Of a DNA stretch of 64,000 nucleotides, positions 15,529 to 49,485 are shown in pieces (the first letter of the stretch is position 1; each line of letters opens with the position of its first letter). Under the pieces are notes generated by a model that saw only the letters and a program-made list of their open reading frames with translations, did no database searches and was not told the DNA's origin. Source of the stretch: Deltaproteobacteria bacterium HGW-Deltaproteobacteria-13 (GTDB lineage: Bacteria > Desulfobacterota > Syntrophia > Syntrophales > Smithellaceae); assembly GCA_002840555.1 (NCBI GenBank), contig PHBJ01000015.1, positions 1 to 64,000 on the forward strand, in the 5' to 3' direction. A program made the position numbers and the translations under genes.

Positions 15529-17931
15529 GTGATTGAAATCAGCAGAATAAAAAGCCTTTTAACGAAAAAAATTGTTGTTCTGGACGGCGCCTTCGGTACG
15601 GAACTGCAAAAGAAAGGCATGCCCGGCGGTGTTTGTCCCGAACAATGGTGTATCGATCATCCGCAAATTATCGGTGATTTGTATACAGCCTATCAAAAAG
15701 CGGGATCGCAGATAGTTTATACCTGCACTTTCGGCGCTAACCGCTTTAAGCTGAAACAATACGGCGTTAGGAAAAATTCTTATCAAATGAATTATGAACT
15801 AGCCCGTCTGGCAAAACAGGTTTGCGGCAAAAAAACTCTGGTGGCCGGAGATATAGGTCCCACCGGTTTATTTATCGAACCCTTCGGTCCGCTGGCCTTT
15901 GAAGAAGCAGTGGATGCCTTTAAGGAACAGGTGCGCGGCCTGATTGATGGCGGGTGCGATCTCATCGTCATCGAAACCATGATTGACATTCAGGAAGCGC
16001 GCGCGGCGCTGCTTGCCGTCAAAGAGATTAAAGATATTTTTACGATCGTCTCCATGACCTATGAAAAAGACGGTCATACACTGGGCGGCACCGATCCGGT
16101 CACCGCGCTTATCACACTGCAGAGCCTCGGAGCGAATGCCGTGGGCTGTAATTGTTCCACGGGTCCTGAAAAGATGGTGGAATTTGTCACCGCGATGAAA
16201 CCGTACGCTGCGGTGCCGCTGGTGGCCAAACCCAACGCAGGGGTTCCCCGCCTCGAAGGCGGAAAAACAATCTTTGAGATGGACGCAAAAACATTTGCGT
16301 CTTACGGACGCAATCTGGCCAAAGCGGGAGCGAACATGCTGGGCGGATGCTGCGGAACAACACCGGCGCATATTCAGGAACTTGCGAAGAGCGTCGCGGT
16401 CATCAAACCCAAAATGCCTGTTAGACAATCCATCAGCGCGTTGAGTTCGGCGCGCGGGTTTCTCCACATCACCGAAAATCAGCCTCTTTTCATCGTGGGC
16501 GAAAGAATAAATCCCACCGGTAAAAAAGCACTTCAGCAGGAACTTGTTGAAGGGAAATTGTCCATCATACGCCGGATGGCTGCCGAGCAGGAAACACAAG
16601 GCGCGAATTTGCTGGATATTAATGTCGGCCAGCCCGGCATCGACGAAGAAAAAACCATTAAAGACGTCATTTCACTTCTCGCCACAACGACCAAACTGCC
16701 GCTGGTGGTGGATTCTTCCAACATAAAAACCATTGAGGCCGCATTGCGGATTTATCCGGGCCGAATGCTGATTAATTCCATCTCCGGTGAAAAAGAAAAA
16801 TTGACCAAACTTCTGCCCCTGGCCGCCAAATACGGCGCCATGTTCATTCTCCTTCCCCTGACCGGCGGCGAAGTACCGCAAACAGCGCAGAAGCGGCAGA
16901 TCATTGTAAAAAATATTTTTCAGGCGGCAAAAAAATACGGTTTTACCCAGGATGATTTTATTGTGGATTGCCTGGTGATGGCCGTGGCCTCCAATCCCGC
17001 CGCCGCTTGTGAAACACTCAAAACCCTTCATTGGTGCGCGCAGACTTTTAAAAGCAAAACCATCCTGGGACTTTCCAATGTTTCTTTCGGCATGCCCGGA
17101 CGCCCGTGGCTCAACGCGACTTTTCTGGCCATGGCGCAATTTTGCGGATTGACCATGGCTATCGCCAATCCCGGAAGCTCCGAAATGATGAATGCAACAA
17201 AAGCGGGAGATGTTCTTCTGGCCAAAGACAAAGACGCCCTGCGTTTCATTAAACATTTTTCCGCTCAGACTGATGTGAATGCCGTCGCTGCCGCCGGCAA
17301 AATTCTTACACCCCAGGAAAAGATCGCTGAAGCGATCATGAATGGCGACCGGGAGAATATTATCCCTTTGATTGAAACCGCGCTTTCTGCCGGCAGTCCG
17401 GCTCAAGAGCTTGTGGACAAGATCATGATTCCTTCCATCGTTCGCGTCGGCGATTTATACGAAAAGAAAATTTATTTTTTACCGCAGCTGATGGCTGCCG
17501 CCGAAGCCATGAAAAAGGCGCTGGGTTTTTTGGAACCCCTCTTAAAGAAGGGGTCTGCCGGAAACAAGGGCAAAATAATTCTGGCAACCGTGAAAGGCGA
17601 TATTCACGATATCGGGAAAAACATCGTTGCCCTGCTTTTGAGAAATTATGGTTATCATGTTATTGATCTGGGCAAAGACGTCACCGCGGAAGCTATTATT
17701 GAAACAGCGAAAAAGGAGAAGCCGGACGTTATCGGCCTTTCCGCATTGATGACCACAACAATGATCAATATGAAAGATGTGATCACACTGGCGCGGACAA
17801 GAGGAATTCAAGAGCCGTTTATGATCGGCGGCGCGGTAGTGACCGACGCTTATGCCAAATCGATCGGAGCGTCTTTTGCACGAGATGGTGTGGAAGCTGT
17901 TAAAGTAGTAGAAAATTTAATTAAAAAATAA
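15529..17931 (+). CDS. metH: cobalamin-dependent methionine synthase lacking the activation domain
   Basis: This protein of about 800 residues has the homocysteine-binding barrel with Zn ligands C209 (GCNCS) and C274/C275 (GGCCGTTP). Next comes the methyltetrahydrofolate-binding pterin domain (VGERINPTG), then the B12 cap, then the B12-binding domain with GDIHDIGKN, the DxHxxG motif whose His coordinates cobalt. The protein ends right after the B12 domain. The roughly 330-residue AdoMet-dependent activation domain of E. coli MetH is missing, as in Thermotoga-type MetH. The start is GTG 15529 because AGGGAGG lies 5 nt upstream; a TTG at 15508 gives seven extra residues and has no such site. 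It methylates homocysteine to methionine in the cytoplasm. Confidence 0.95.
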   Translation: MIEISRIKSLLTKKIVVLDGAFGTELQKKGMPGGVCPEQWCIDHPQIIGDLYTAYQKAGSQIVYTCTFGANRFKLKQYGVRKNSYQMNYELARLAKQVCGKKTLVAGDIGPTGLFIEPFGPLAFEEAVDAFKEQVRGLIDGGCDLIVIETMIDIQEARAALLAVKEIKDIFTIVSMTYEKDGHTLGGTDPVTALITLQSLGANAVGCNCSTGPEKMVEFVTAMKPYAAVPLVAKPNAGVPRLEGGKTIFEMDAKTFASYGRNLAKAGANMLGGCCGTTPAHIQELAKSVAVIKPKMPVRQSISALSSARGFLHITENQPLFIVGERINPTGKKALQQELVEGKLSIIRRMAAEQETQGANLLDINVGQPGIDEEKTIKDVISLLATTTKLPLVVDSSNIKTIEAALRIYPGRMLINSISGEKEKLTKLLPLAAKYGAMFILLPLTGGEVPQTAQKRQIIVKNIFQAAKKYGFTQDDFIVDCLVMAVASNPAAACETLKTLHWCAQTFKSKTILGLSNVSFGMPGRPWLNATFLAMAQFCGLTMAIANPGSSEMMNATKAGDVLLAKDKDALRFIKHFSAQTDVNAVAAAGKILTPQEKIAEAIMNGDRENIIPLIETALSAGSPAQELVDKIMIPSIVRVGDLYEKKIYFLPQLMAAAEAMKKALGFLEPLLKKGSAGNKGKIILATVKGDIHDIGKNIVALLLRNYGYHVIDLGKDVTAEAIIETAKKEKPDVIGLSALMTTTMINMKDVITLARTRGIQEPFMIGGAVVTDAYAKSIGASFARDGVEAVKVVENLIKK

Positions 17932-29469: not shown

Positions 29470-30519
29470 TTACAGTTGAATGCTGTAGATCTTCCTGAAG
29501 AGTCTGTGAATATTATTTTTGATACCTTTCTCTCTGATAATATTTTTGTAGATTCGAAATCTGCAATATATCAGGTAAATCTGCAAAGCTCCCGCAAAAC
29601 GGGAAAAGGCCAGATCATATAGTAATTTTTCCCGGGGCCATAAGAAGCGGATATTCCCGAACTCCCGGCAAAAAGCGGCATATCTTTGTCGCAGCCCGGC
29701 ACAGGCTTGGTCATTGCCTGAATTGATATTGGACATATAATTATTACGCAGGGCCGTAAGATAAACGTAAGCGGCCCGACGGAAAAAGCGTTTCTTGCCC
29801 TTGGCGAAAAAATAACGGATTCTTTCATAATGTGCCGCATGACAATCCCCGTTTAGAAAACCCTCTACGCTGCCGCTGATACTGGCGCTTCGCTGCAGAT
29901 AATGATATTGGGGGACATTATGCAAAACGACACGCCTCGCTTTTTCAAAGATGAGATGCTGGGTGAAAATATCTTCGAATGTTTTCCCTTCCGGCATTCT
30001 GAACCCGTTGGATAAATCCCTTTTATAAAGCTTGCTCCAAAAGTGACTCTGGATTATTCCGTCCTGCAGCAGCAGCTCCAGAGCCTCATCCCGTTCCAGA
30101 ACGCTGTGGGTGTATGATTTATCATTGGGTTCTTCGATATGATTAAAAGTTAGGAAAAATCCGCAGCAAGCAATATCCGCTTGGGCGCTCAAGAGATCGT
30201 TTTGCAGAAATTTATACATATCGCTCTCCAGCCAGTCATCGCTGTCGGCAAAGCCCAAATACTCCCCGGTGGCGACATTCAACCCCGAATTACGGGCAGC
30301 CGAAACGCCACCATTTTCCCGGTGGATGACCTTTATTCTACCGTCTCTTGACGCATACCGGTCGCAGATTTCTCCGCTGCCGTCCCTGGAGCCGTCGTCG
30401 ACAAGAATGATCTCCAGATTCCGGTAGCTCTGACCGACGATCGAATCCAGGCATTTCTCCAGATAGTGTTCGACATTATAAATTGGAATAATCACGCTGA
30501 TCAGCTTTTCCTTTTCCAT
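29470..30519 (-). CDS. family 2 glycosyltransferase
   Basis: This 349-residue GT-A fold enzyme has the N-terminal VSVIIPIYN-type block (LISVIIPIYNVEHYLEKCL), LVDDGSRDGS for nucleotide binding, GGVSAARNSGL and FADSDDWLE, which holds the DxD-like metal site. The rest resembles EpsJ/CgeD-type transferases for extracellular polysaccharide. The start is ATG 30519 because GGAAGG lies 7 nt upstream; a GTG at 30534 is the alternative. The substrate is unknown. GDP-mannose from the neighbouring manC is a possible donor (inference). Confidence 0.88.
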   Translation of the reverse strand: MEKEKLISVIIPIYNVEHYLEKCLDSIVGQSYRNLEIILVDDGSRDGSGEICDRYASRDGRIKVIHRENGGVSAARNSGLNVATGEYLGFADSDDWLESDMYKFLQNDLLSAQADIACCGFFLTFNHIEEPNDKSYTHSVLERDEALELLLQDGIIQSHFWSKLYKRDLSNGFRMPEGKTFEDIFTQHLIFEKARRVVLHNVPQYHYLQRSASISGSVEGFLNGDCHAAHYERIRYFFAKGKKRFFRRAAYVYLTALRNNYMSNINSGNDQACAGLRQRYAAFCREFGNIRFLWPREKLLYDLAFSRFAGALQIYLIYCRFRIYKNIIREKGIKNNIHRLFRKIYSIQL

Positions 30520-30949
30520 AAGCAGACCTTCCACTAAAAATTTTATTCCTAAGTATTTCTTGGCCTTCAGACGACATGGAAGCAGAGCTTTTAAACGCTG
30601 CTGCGGACAACAATCCGGTAGGGGGAAATGCTTCGTCGAATTGACTCCATGACGTCGAGGAATATAGGGAAATTCTGTTTTAATGTCAAAGGTTAAAATT
30701 TATTGCCGGAGTACAGCAGAAAATGATCAAGGGGGAAAATAAAAAATTCGGAATTTATCAATATCCTTAGAGTGATTGGTTAGAAACAGAGGGGGCCTGT
30801 TAACTCATAAACTTTCGCCTTGATGAAGGCGAAAGGGCAAGCCTTCTTTGGGCATATGTAGGTAGCATGAAGAACGGCATCCAGATGAAATAAGAAAACT
30901 GGATTCCCGATTGAGTCGGGAATGACAGTCGGAAAAGATATCTCTGATT
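30520..30949. other. non-coding gap with hairpins
   Basis: No ORF is supported in these 430 nt. A 10-bp hairpin (CTTTCGCCTT at 30812-30821 with AAGGCGAAAG at 30826-30835) and the inverted repeat near 30903-30922 are the visible structures. Their role is unclear apart from possible termination of the selenoprotein transcript. Confidence 0.5.
30903..30922 (-). terminator. inverted repeat after the selenoprotein gene, possible terminator
   Basis: ATTCCCGA and TCGGGAAT form an 8-bp stem with a 4-5-nt loop, starting about 28 nt after the selenoprotein stop codon on the minus strand. The following sequence is only moderately T-rich, so termination is a weak call. Similar hairpins are frequent intergenic repeats in related genomes. 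Confidence 0.4.
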
Positions 30950-31246
30950 TTATTTTGTATAAACAGGTTTCCCTATTATTTTATTTCCTCCTTTTTCCAG
31001 ATTGTTGGTAATGATATCAAGGGTCGTGATGTTGTCATCAAAAGTTACGATCAAAATATCCTTGTCCTCGAACTGATATTTTTTTACACCTTTCATTTCT
31101 TTCAGGATAGCCCCTATCCTGTGTGAAGCGCCTCAAGCGGCACAACCCGGTACTGTTAACTGAACGACCCTTTCTTCAGCTGAGGCAACGTTCCCCAAAG
31201 CCGCTAAGAAAATCAGAGCCAGAAATACGGTAAATTTTTTTTTCAT
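30950..31246 (-). CDS. MerP/HMA-like selenoprotein with CxxU motif (UGA read as Sec)
   Basis: Translation with one in-frame UGA (31133-31135) read as selenocysteine gives 98 residues. There is a signal peptide (MKKKF, hydrophobic core, ASA before EER), then a heavy-metal-associated domain. The stretch VVQLTVPGC-AAU-G aligns with the MerP segment ending GMTCAAC, so Sec38 replaces the second Cys of the metal-binding CxxC (C35-A-A-U38). The rest also follows MerP: GVKKYQFEDKDILIVTFDD against the GVSKV...VTFDD part. A perfect SECIS-type hairpin begins 11 nt after UGA. AGGGAG lies 6 nt before the start; an ATG one codon upstream is the alternative. The likely role is periplasmic binding of a soft metal or redox chemistry. 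Ordinary ORF calling breaks the gene at UGA. Confidence 0.88.
31103..31121 (-). promoter_or_regulatory. bacterial SECIS element
   Basis: On the coding (minus) strand CAGGATAG pairs perfectly with CTATCCTG around a GGG loop. The stem begins 11 nt after the UGA, and the loop is 19 nt after it, inside the 16-37-nt range usual for bacterial SECIS elements. G occupies the first loop positions, as SelB recognition requires. The hairpin lies within the coding sequence. Confidence 0.88.
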
Positions 31247-31274
31247 CATCAACTCCCTGAGTGCTTTTTATTTT

Positions 31275-31304
31275 ATAATAACGCCAATCGCCATCGGAAT
31301 GCAA
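31275..31304 (-). promoter_or_regulatory. promoter of the selenoprotein gene
   Basis: On the minus strand TTGCAT (31299-31304), an 18-nt spacer and TATTAT (31275-31280) precede the gene by about 30 nt. This supports the gene being transcribed independently. Confidence 0.55.
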
Positions 31305-31382
31305 TGACAATTTACAATTGACAGGCTCCGTTAAATTTGTGATAGACATAAGCATAACAGGTCTGAAGAAATATAAAATATT

Positions 31383-31976
31383 ATGTCTATTACTTCCAAT
31401 TATTTATTTATTCTGGCATCCGAGTCGCCGCGCAGGCGGGAAATTCTTAAATCAGTCGGTTTGAAATTCAAAACCATTCCGGCCCACGTTAATGAGGATT
31501 ATCTTGCCGGAGAAAGTCCGCGGGAGCATGTCAAAAGACTCTCCCGTGACAAGGCGCTGGTCATTGCCCGGAAAAATCCGGAATCGTGGGTGCTGGGCGC
31601 CGATACGATTGTCGTAATCGATGGAATGATCCTGGGAAAACCCAAAAACAAAGCGCAGGCAAAAATAATGCTCGAAAGGCTCAGCGGACGTGAACATAAG
31701 GTTTTCACAGGTTTTACCATTGCTCATATGGCTTCGGGAATTTGTCAGACGAAAGTCATTCAGTCCGCTGTGCGCTTTAAATTGATAAGCCCTGAAGAAT
31801 TAAACTGGTACATCGCTTGCGATGAACCCTATGATAAGGCCGGCGGATATGCCATACAGGGAAAAGGCGCCTATTTTATCCAATCAATTCGGGGATCTTA
31901 TACGAACGTGATCGGTCTGCCGCTTTGCGAAGTTCTGGAGACGTTAAAAGAATTCAAAGCAATCCATTTTCGGTAA
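31383..31976 (+). CDS. maf: Maf-family nucleoside triphosphate pyrophosphatase
   Basis: The 197-residue protein has the Maf signature LASESPRRREILKSVG at the N terminus, then SRDKA, VLGADTIVVIDG and GKPKNKAQAKIML. The C-terminal YDKAGGYAIQGKGAYFI block completes the family pattern. Maf proteins hydrolyse non-canonical NTPs (dTTP/UTP or modified nucleotides) and can affect septation. It lies upstream of yggS on the same strand, separated by a hairpin. Confidence 0.93.
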   Translation: MSITSNYLFILASESPRRREILKSVGLKFKTIPAHVNEDYLAGESPREHVKRLSRDKALVIARKNPESWVLGADTIVVIDGMILGKPKNKAQAKIMLERLSGREHKVFTGFTIAHMASGICQTKVIQSAVRFKLISPEELNWYIACDEPYDKAGGYAIQGKGAYFIQSIRGSYTNVIGLPLCEVLETLKEFKAIHFR

Positions 31977-49387: not shown

Positions 49388-49485
49388 GGAAGTGCCAAGG
49401 TCACTGGTGGGCCTCCCGGACTTCAAATCCGGTGTGGGGCGCTAAAACCGTCCTAGGTGGGTTCGATTCCCATGCACTTCCGCCA
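49388..49485 (+). tRNA. selC: tRNA-Sec (anticodon UCA)
   Basis: The 98-nt tRNA has an 8-bp acceptor stem (GGAAGTGC/GCACTTCC), a D arm AGGTC/GGCCT, an anticodon stem CCGGA/TCCGG with loop CTTCAAA (anticodon TCA), a long variable arm (GGGGCG/CGTCCT) and T arm TGGG-TTCGATT-CCCA. G73 and an encoded CCA follow. The anticodon arm matches E. coli selC. This supplies selenocysteine for UGA codons, such as that in the MerP-like gene at 30950-31246. selA, selB and selD are not in the window. Confidence 0.97.

Follow-up and report, generated by a model that had tools for sequence, protein, structure and literature searches.

A probable CxxU selenoprotein on an HMA-type fold, conserved across the class Syntrophia

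Main finding

The window, by which we mean the whole 64,000-nucleotide stretch of DNA analysed here, carries on its minus strand a gene of 98 codons plus TAA (30950–31246, −) with UGA as codon 38, and this gene is almost certainly decoded as a selenoprotein. Its homologues make it a member of a lineage that is conserved across the class Syntrophia and is very probably a real selenium-containing protein. The selenoprotein is encoded by about two thirds (102/155) of the class genomes searched and lies below every curated cut-off in the scans made, and ordinary gene calling is therefore expected to truncate or drop the gene in syntrophic anaerobes.

A frame interrupted by a single UGA

As described in the original prediction, the locus at 31246–30950 (−) consists of an ATG frame with a ribosome-binding site and a signal-peptide-like N-terminus, one UGA and then a TAA stop (30952–30950, −), and it is missed by standard ORF calling, with no ORF of at least 60 aa called there. 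The UGA at 31133–31135 (−), read as selenocysteine (Sec), provides U38 of a C35-A-A-U38 motif, which stands in the window protein as G-C-A-A-U. The predicted signal peptide (31178–31246, −) is hydrophobic and lysine-rich and ends in ASA, with cleavage likely after residue 23; this assignment comes from reading the sequence, and relatives have similar N-termini. A ribosome-binding site, AGGGAG (31253–31258, −), lies 5' of the ATG at a place where the 22 aligned relatives have the consensus GAGGT, and an in-frame ATG at 31249 offers an alternative start.

The stretch that separates the gene from the divergent maf (31246–31383) includes two blocks, CTGTCAATTGYAAATT and TATCACAAATTT, conserved in most of the 22 aligned relatives, the first of which may hold the −35 box of maf, possibly together with an operator-like dyad. 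A candidate promoter for the selenoprotein gene, TTGCAT-N18-TATTAT (31275–31304, −), is proposed from conservation; a scan with the promoter consensus returned matches no commoner than in shuffled sequence, this candidate not among them. Downstream of the stop there is an intrinsic-terminator-like hairpin with a T tail (30903–30923, −; one found, 0.3 expected). A simple scan of the other UGA frames of the window gave no further convincing selenoprotein, and the frame at 16376 (−), which has a hairpin of equal length, looks accidental.

Homologues and Sec machinery

Of 60 related genomes, 49 possess a homologue, and all 49 possess a TGA-bearing copy. These searches returned 53 rows, of which 51 contain a single TGA and two have no stop; three were dropped (two fragments and one distant sequence), so that 50 loci were used, and the protein alignment holds 48 rows, leaving out a locus cut by a contig end (L043) and a fusion (L058). 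In the class-wide search 105 of 155 genomes matched (117 rows) and 102 had a TGA-bearing copy, the three remaining being G525 (L133) and two with partial matches that stop short of the site. The G525 homologue (L133, contig C26) has neither Cys nor Sec there and reads PAIVSLETA. Across a sample of the phylum, 46 of 395 genomes matched at E ≤ 1e-5, ten of them within the same order. The 36 matches outside the order comprise six Sec forms like the family, one UxxU protein (G085) and 29 sequences with no internal stop, of which the 13 inspected are canonical Cys HMA domains. Homologues with Sec or Cys at position 38, on whose existence the original prediction depended, were thus found: the Sec rows, two CxxC forms (L039 and L045) and two CxC forms (L131 and L132). 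A sequencing error, which the prediction had raised as a danger, is excluded because many other assemblies have the UGA at this very codon.

The part of the protein past the UGA appears to be under purifying constraint: when pairs are ranked by pN in this part, the 14 lowest have dN smaller than dS (ratios about 0.06 to 0.63, in a ranking that itself favours low ratios). Over 861 pairs the mean pN/pS was 0.51 after the UGA and 0.57 before it, so both parts behave alike; these all-pair values are uncorrected and largely saturated, and weight is therefore put on the close pairs.

The tRNA-Sec gene claimed for the window was located at 49388–49485 (+), with anticodon TCA and 75.1 bits to Rfam RF01852, and the selB (379 bits) and selA (620 bits) genes sought in the genome are both present outside the window with scores above cut-off. 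Among the 60 relatives, selA was found in 57. Use of UGA as a general sense codon was considered and is unsupported, with UGA ending seven of the 34 open frames of at least 250 codons in the window.

A SECIS-like hairpin maintained by covariation

Within the frame, a bacterial SECIS-like hairpin (CAGGATAG-GGG-CTATCCTG; 31103–31121, −) was present as predicted, with an 8-bp stem that begins 11 nt after the UGA and a GGG loop (31113–31111) 19 nt after it. Taken singly, the window hairpin is moderately unlikely by chance (P = 0.037 under synonymous recoding), and no more than moderately because it overlaps the conserved RIGAIL peptide. Recoding gave P < 0.05 for 32 of 44 Sec rows and for neither of the two Cys rows, per-row values that are not independent since the rows are related.

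Stronger evidence comes from the alignment of the 44 Sec rows, which remain from the 50 loci after exclusion of six others, two of Cys type and four of CxU type. Pairing is kept in 94.8% of 344 cells, six of the eight pairs change on both sides, none of 500 shuffles attained the observed pairing and covariation, and pairing fell to 30–45% when the partner strand was slid along the alignment. Codon choice under the stem is similarly restricted: Arg at U+5 is encoded by AGG in 40 of the 44 rows, against a share of 11.7% among the window's Arg codons, and all 36 Ile codons at U+6 are ATA, against a usage of 17.5%. A stem of at least 7 bp occurs in 43 of 48 Sec rows; of the 56 canonical Cys HMA domains compared, which include some near-copies, eight have one. 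Two of the 48 Sec rows (L015 and L056) lack an uninterrupted stem of 6 bp, and three of eight distant Sec forms (L110, L111 and the UxxU protein L124) have only 5 bp. In the two CxxC paralogues the longest stems are 5 and 4 bp, and L039 keeps the RIGAIL peptide with different codons, its hairpin gone.

Decoding of the UGA by SelB and tRNA-Sec, as predicted from these sequences, is the only reading that fits the frame, the hairpin, the homologues and the machinery alike.

Sec and Cys variants

The original prediction spoke of Sec in place of Cys, and Cys counterparts do exist at the site, though the direction of change may be the reverse. The two CxxC forms (L039:4992-5282 and L045:5004-5294) are paralogues in genomes that also carry a Sec copy (G026 and G018) and have lost the hairpin. 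In a midpoint-rooted tree of 64 rows and 74 columns (omitting L043, L111, L113, L119, L121 and L123) they fall inside a Sec clade, which has support of 99/96, with weaker inner forks at 85/88 and 92/78; the CxC forms L131 and L132, which are outside this tree, belong within the CxU branch. On both grounds replacement of Sec by Cys is preferred, and the CxxC forms seem to derive from Sec, apparently after duplication with loss of the SECIS element.

In the CxxU rows the first Cys is nearly invariant (43 of 44, with Tyr in L054). Elsewhere in the phylum, L110, L111 and L112 (GVVU) and L109 (SGGU) keep Sec with no Cys near it, and such distant members would act through a lone selenol. A CxU form of the selenodomain is fused to a thioredoxin-fold domain in five genomes from one family of the order (L058:4603-5337 and L134–L137), a domain identified by Pfam in L058 (Thioredoxin_9) and alike by eye in the other four, with an incomplete thioredoxin motif (CPDS, CKDS, SPGS, SKES or SPDS). 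The family offers a natural series, CxxU, CxU, GVVU, CxxC and CxC, all on a single small fold, from which one could measure directly how metal affinity and redox behaviour differ between Sec and Cys.

Fold and motif register

The likeness to HMA and MerP proteins noted in the original prediction is borne out by both profile matches and the predicted fold. The MerP model TIGR02052 matches the window protein at 34.2 bits (E 2.6e-8), below its cut-off of 92.55, and matches all 48 aligned members at E ≤ 0.01. The HMA model PF00403 has no match to the window protein and matches 12 of the 48 members at the same threshold. Searched against structures, the family profile found copper and mercury HMA domains (best E 1.8e-12; MerP 1osd, 4.2e-9). 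An AlphaFold2 model with Cys for Sec (pLDDT 85.7) has an E-H-E-E-H order in the mature part, and VIA-align ranked HMA domains at the top, with 3dxs at Z 11.6 (rmsd 1.8, 73 aligned), Atx1 (1cc7) at Z 11.0 (rmsd 1.8, 70 aligned) and MerP (1osd) at Z 10.5 (rmsd 2.0, 71 aligned; residues 24–95 on 1–72). The mature protein can be predicted with high confidence to adopt the HMA (ferredoxin-like) fold, and in the model C35 and U38 directly precede helix 1. Other HMA matches of the genome comprise what we read as a CopA and a CopZ with canonical Cys motifs, and a third, weak one.

How the motif lies on this fold depends on the alignment. The family lacks the metal-loop signature GMxCxxC, having GCxxU and no Met in either register. 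The prediction that the UGA replaces the second Cys of a CxxC agrees with phmmer and hhalign, which pair C35 and U38 with the two Cys by means of two compensating 2-residue gaps, from queries in which Cys stood for Sec and so favoured that pairing. Against it, in the gap-free multiple alignment C35 is aligned with the Met of GMxCxxC and U38 with the residue that follows the first Cys, and the CxU and GVVU relatives have U on the first Cys. The structural match to MerP, which has almost no gaps and is known from its end points alone, agrees with the gap-free register, and we lean towards that reading.

A possible soft-metal or redox role

We propose that SelB and tRNA-Sec would decode the UGA at codon 38 with the help of the SECIS-like hairpin, that the leader would direct export of the HMA-fold selenoprotein to the periplasm, and that there the thiol-selenolate pair C35/U38 may capture one of the soft ions Hg2+, Cu+ and Ag+, or perhaps a metalloid. 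The captured ion would then be kept off other targets or handed on. Within this chain the capture of metal is the least secure step, and the chain as a whole, a single-gene exported HMA-fold selenoprotein that is Sec-decoded and binds soft metal in the periplasm, has in our estimate a little under an even chance of being right; for the narrower claim that a soft-metal ligand is the main role, the chances look roughly balanced. Metal capture is preferred because the known relatives use the fold for metals and because a selenolate binds Hg and Cu tightly. Against a metal role are the absence of the Met of GMxCxxC and a register unlike that of canonical HMA domains, and since the GVVU and SGGU relatives have no Cys near U, a two-residue chelate would not be general.

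A serious rival, nearly as plausible and with perhaps a third of our belief behind it, is that the protein uses the HMA scaffold for redox chemistry in the periplasm: C35 and U38 would form a selenenylsulfide, and the protein would reduce disulfides, peroxides or metalloids and carry no metal. The retention of the first Cys in nearly all CxxU rows and the loss of the metal-loop Met would both suit such a role, and the fusion of the related CxU form to a thioredoxin-like domain points towards redox. Selenoproteins more widely lean the same way: in the GOS survey 33 of 51 selenoprotein families are homologues of thiol oxidoreductases or thioredoxin-like (PMC2398784). The redox reading is weakened by the GVVU and SGGU relatives, which lack a nearby Cys partner, although an external partner could serve; by the fold itself, which is that of metal carriers; and by a conserved gene context in which no redox gene stands out.

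Soft-metal capture stays the reading we work with. A broader view can be put forward as a speculation that we consider rather unlikely as a whole. The family might be a class-wide housekeeping HMA-fold lineage defined by Sec and not by the CxxC pair, in which Sec would persist as the Cys neighbour, the spacing (CxxU, CxU, GVVU) and the Met vary, and from which Cys forms would arise by loss of Sec and SECIS; the metallochaperone fold would here be put to a use specific to a selenol, possibly protecting syntrophic bacteria, often ones with hgcA, against mercury or reduced metalloids.

Relation to described selenoproteins

Selenoproteins of HMA type are already known, and among these the CxxU lineage, with its motif and synteny, is on present sequence comparisons a variant that passes no NCBIfam cut-off where bits are given. 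Like MerP (TIGR02052), the window protein is a short polypeptide of HMA fold, predicted to be exported, whose soft ligand pair precedes helix 1; unlike MerP, it scores below the model's cut-off, contains Sec, has no Met before the motif and is apparently encoded outside a mer operon. It shares with the UxxU protein NF041115 the character of an HMA-type selenoprotein, that protein having two Sec at a canonical GMxUxxU whereas the present family has one, in GCxxU. NF045683, a MerT/CopZ fusion, is likewise a selenoprotein with an HMA-type part, and differs in being a 235-position model that includes a MerT part, with a cut-off of 375 bits that the family does not approach.

That the window protein simply belongs to one of these two modelled metal selenoprotein families is improbable. 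At E ≤ 0.01, NF041115 does match 25 of the 48 members and NF045683 three of them, yet NF041115 gives the window protein 12.8 bits, and its cut-off of 95 is passed by none of the matches in the 60 relatives. The motif is CxxU and not UxxU, and the 98-residue protein has only a leader before its domain and no MerT part. Membership in NF041115, NF045683 or MerP was rejected because the cut-offs are failed by the window protein and eight further proteins, which are family members, variants or related proteins; bit scores refer to these nine, and other members were compared by E-value. The UxxU protein found in the phylum sample (L124:1558-1776, G085) reads GMIUPAU and, as a 73-residue fragment, reaches 82.1 bits with NF041115 (cut-off 95); by reading, it would be an HMA selenoprotein of the NF041115 type, and it groups in the tree with canonical Cys HMA proteins (98/95).

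Least probable of all, and to be set aside with very little hesitation, is a true stop at the UGA that ends a 37-residue exported peptide with the remainder a decayed or accidental frame: the silence of standard ORF calling and the use of UGA as a normal stop elsewhere in the window would suit it, whereas the recurrence, in 102 class genomes, of the UGA at this codon ahead of conserved protein sequence, dN < dS past the UGA, the covariation of the hairpin and its absence from both CxxC paralogues speak against it. A pseudogene is rejected as well.

The suspicion that MerP-like selenoproteins had been listed in earlier surveys was confirmed. Table 2 of the GOS survey includes the selenoproteins 'Mercuric transport protein MerP' and 'Putative mercuric transport protein', with two sequences each (PMC2398784), and Table 1 of a 2026 review has a putative mercuric transport protein with PF02411 and a C/SxxU motif (PMC13188914). 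The same review lists the UxxU metal-binding protein NF041115 (PMC13188914), which appears in the tables of reviews as a 'putative mercuric reductase'. The terms PF00403, HMA and TIGR02052 are absent from the text of the 2026 review (PMC13188914), and no such family occurs in the covered text of a 2022 review (PMC9312934) or of the deep-Sep paper (PMC12013277). The mercuric transport entries resemble the present family in being predicted Sec forms of mercury-transport-like proteins that are already in print; compared by description and not by sequence, the review entry differs in its MerT domain (PF02411), which the family lacks. No description of a CxxU lineage with maf–manC synteny occurs in the literature covered, and absence from print is not claimed.

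Genomic context

The surroundings of the gene were compared across 49 loci, several of which are cut by contig ends. A divergent maf lies upstream in 30 loci, a yggS-like gene behind maf in 29 and a manC-like gene converging from downstream in 29, with neighbours named from Pfam matches and reading; the Cys, CxU and distant forms are mostly situated elsewhere. The window has the divergent maf at 31383–31976 (+), which is conserved context and not part of the proposed system. No metal operon was seen around the gene, the recurrent neighbours being maf, yggS-like and manC-like genes. No metal, selenium or redox partner gene stands out in the conserved context of the 49 loci, and the selenoprotein gene thus looks like a single-gene unit. 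A search for MerT (PF02411) in the window's own genome gave no match, the control genomes being silent too.

The distance from the selenoprotein gene to manC is 1708 nt in the window and 8–508 nt in the other 28 loci with manC, and a family 2 glycosyltransferase gene lies between the two in the window (29470–30534); the shorter gap elsewhere suggests that the glycosyltransferase gene was inserted in the window.

With regard to mercury, hgcA scored above cut-off in 34 of the 60 relatives, comprising 32 of 49 genomes with the selenoprotein gene and two of 11 without it. As 36 of the 49 belong to one family, no conclusion is drawn on a link; outside that family hgcA was found in six of 13 genomes with the gene and two of 11 without. 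If the selenoprotein binds mercury, it would bear on the handling of Hg by hgcA-bearing syntrophs. The window's genome itself has an hgcA above cut-off (G000:C21:49581-50561, 472.8 bits) and, judging by this gene, may methylate mercury.
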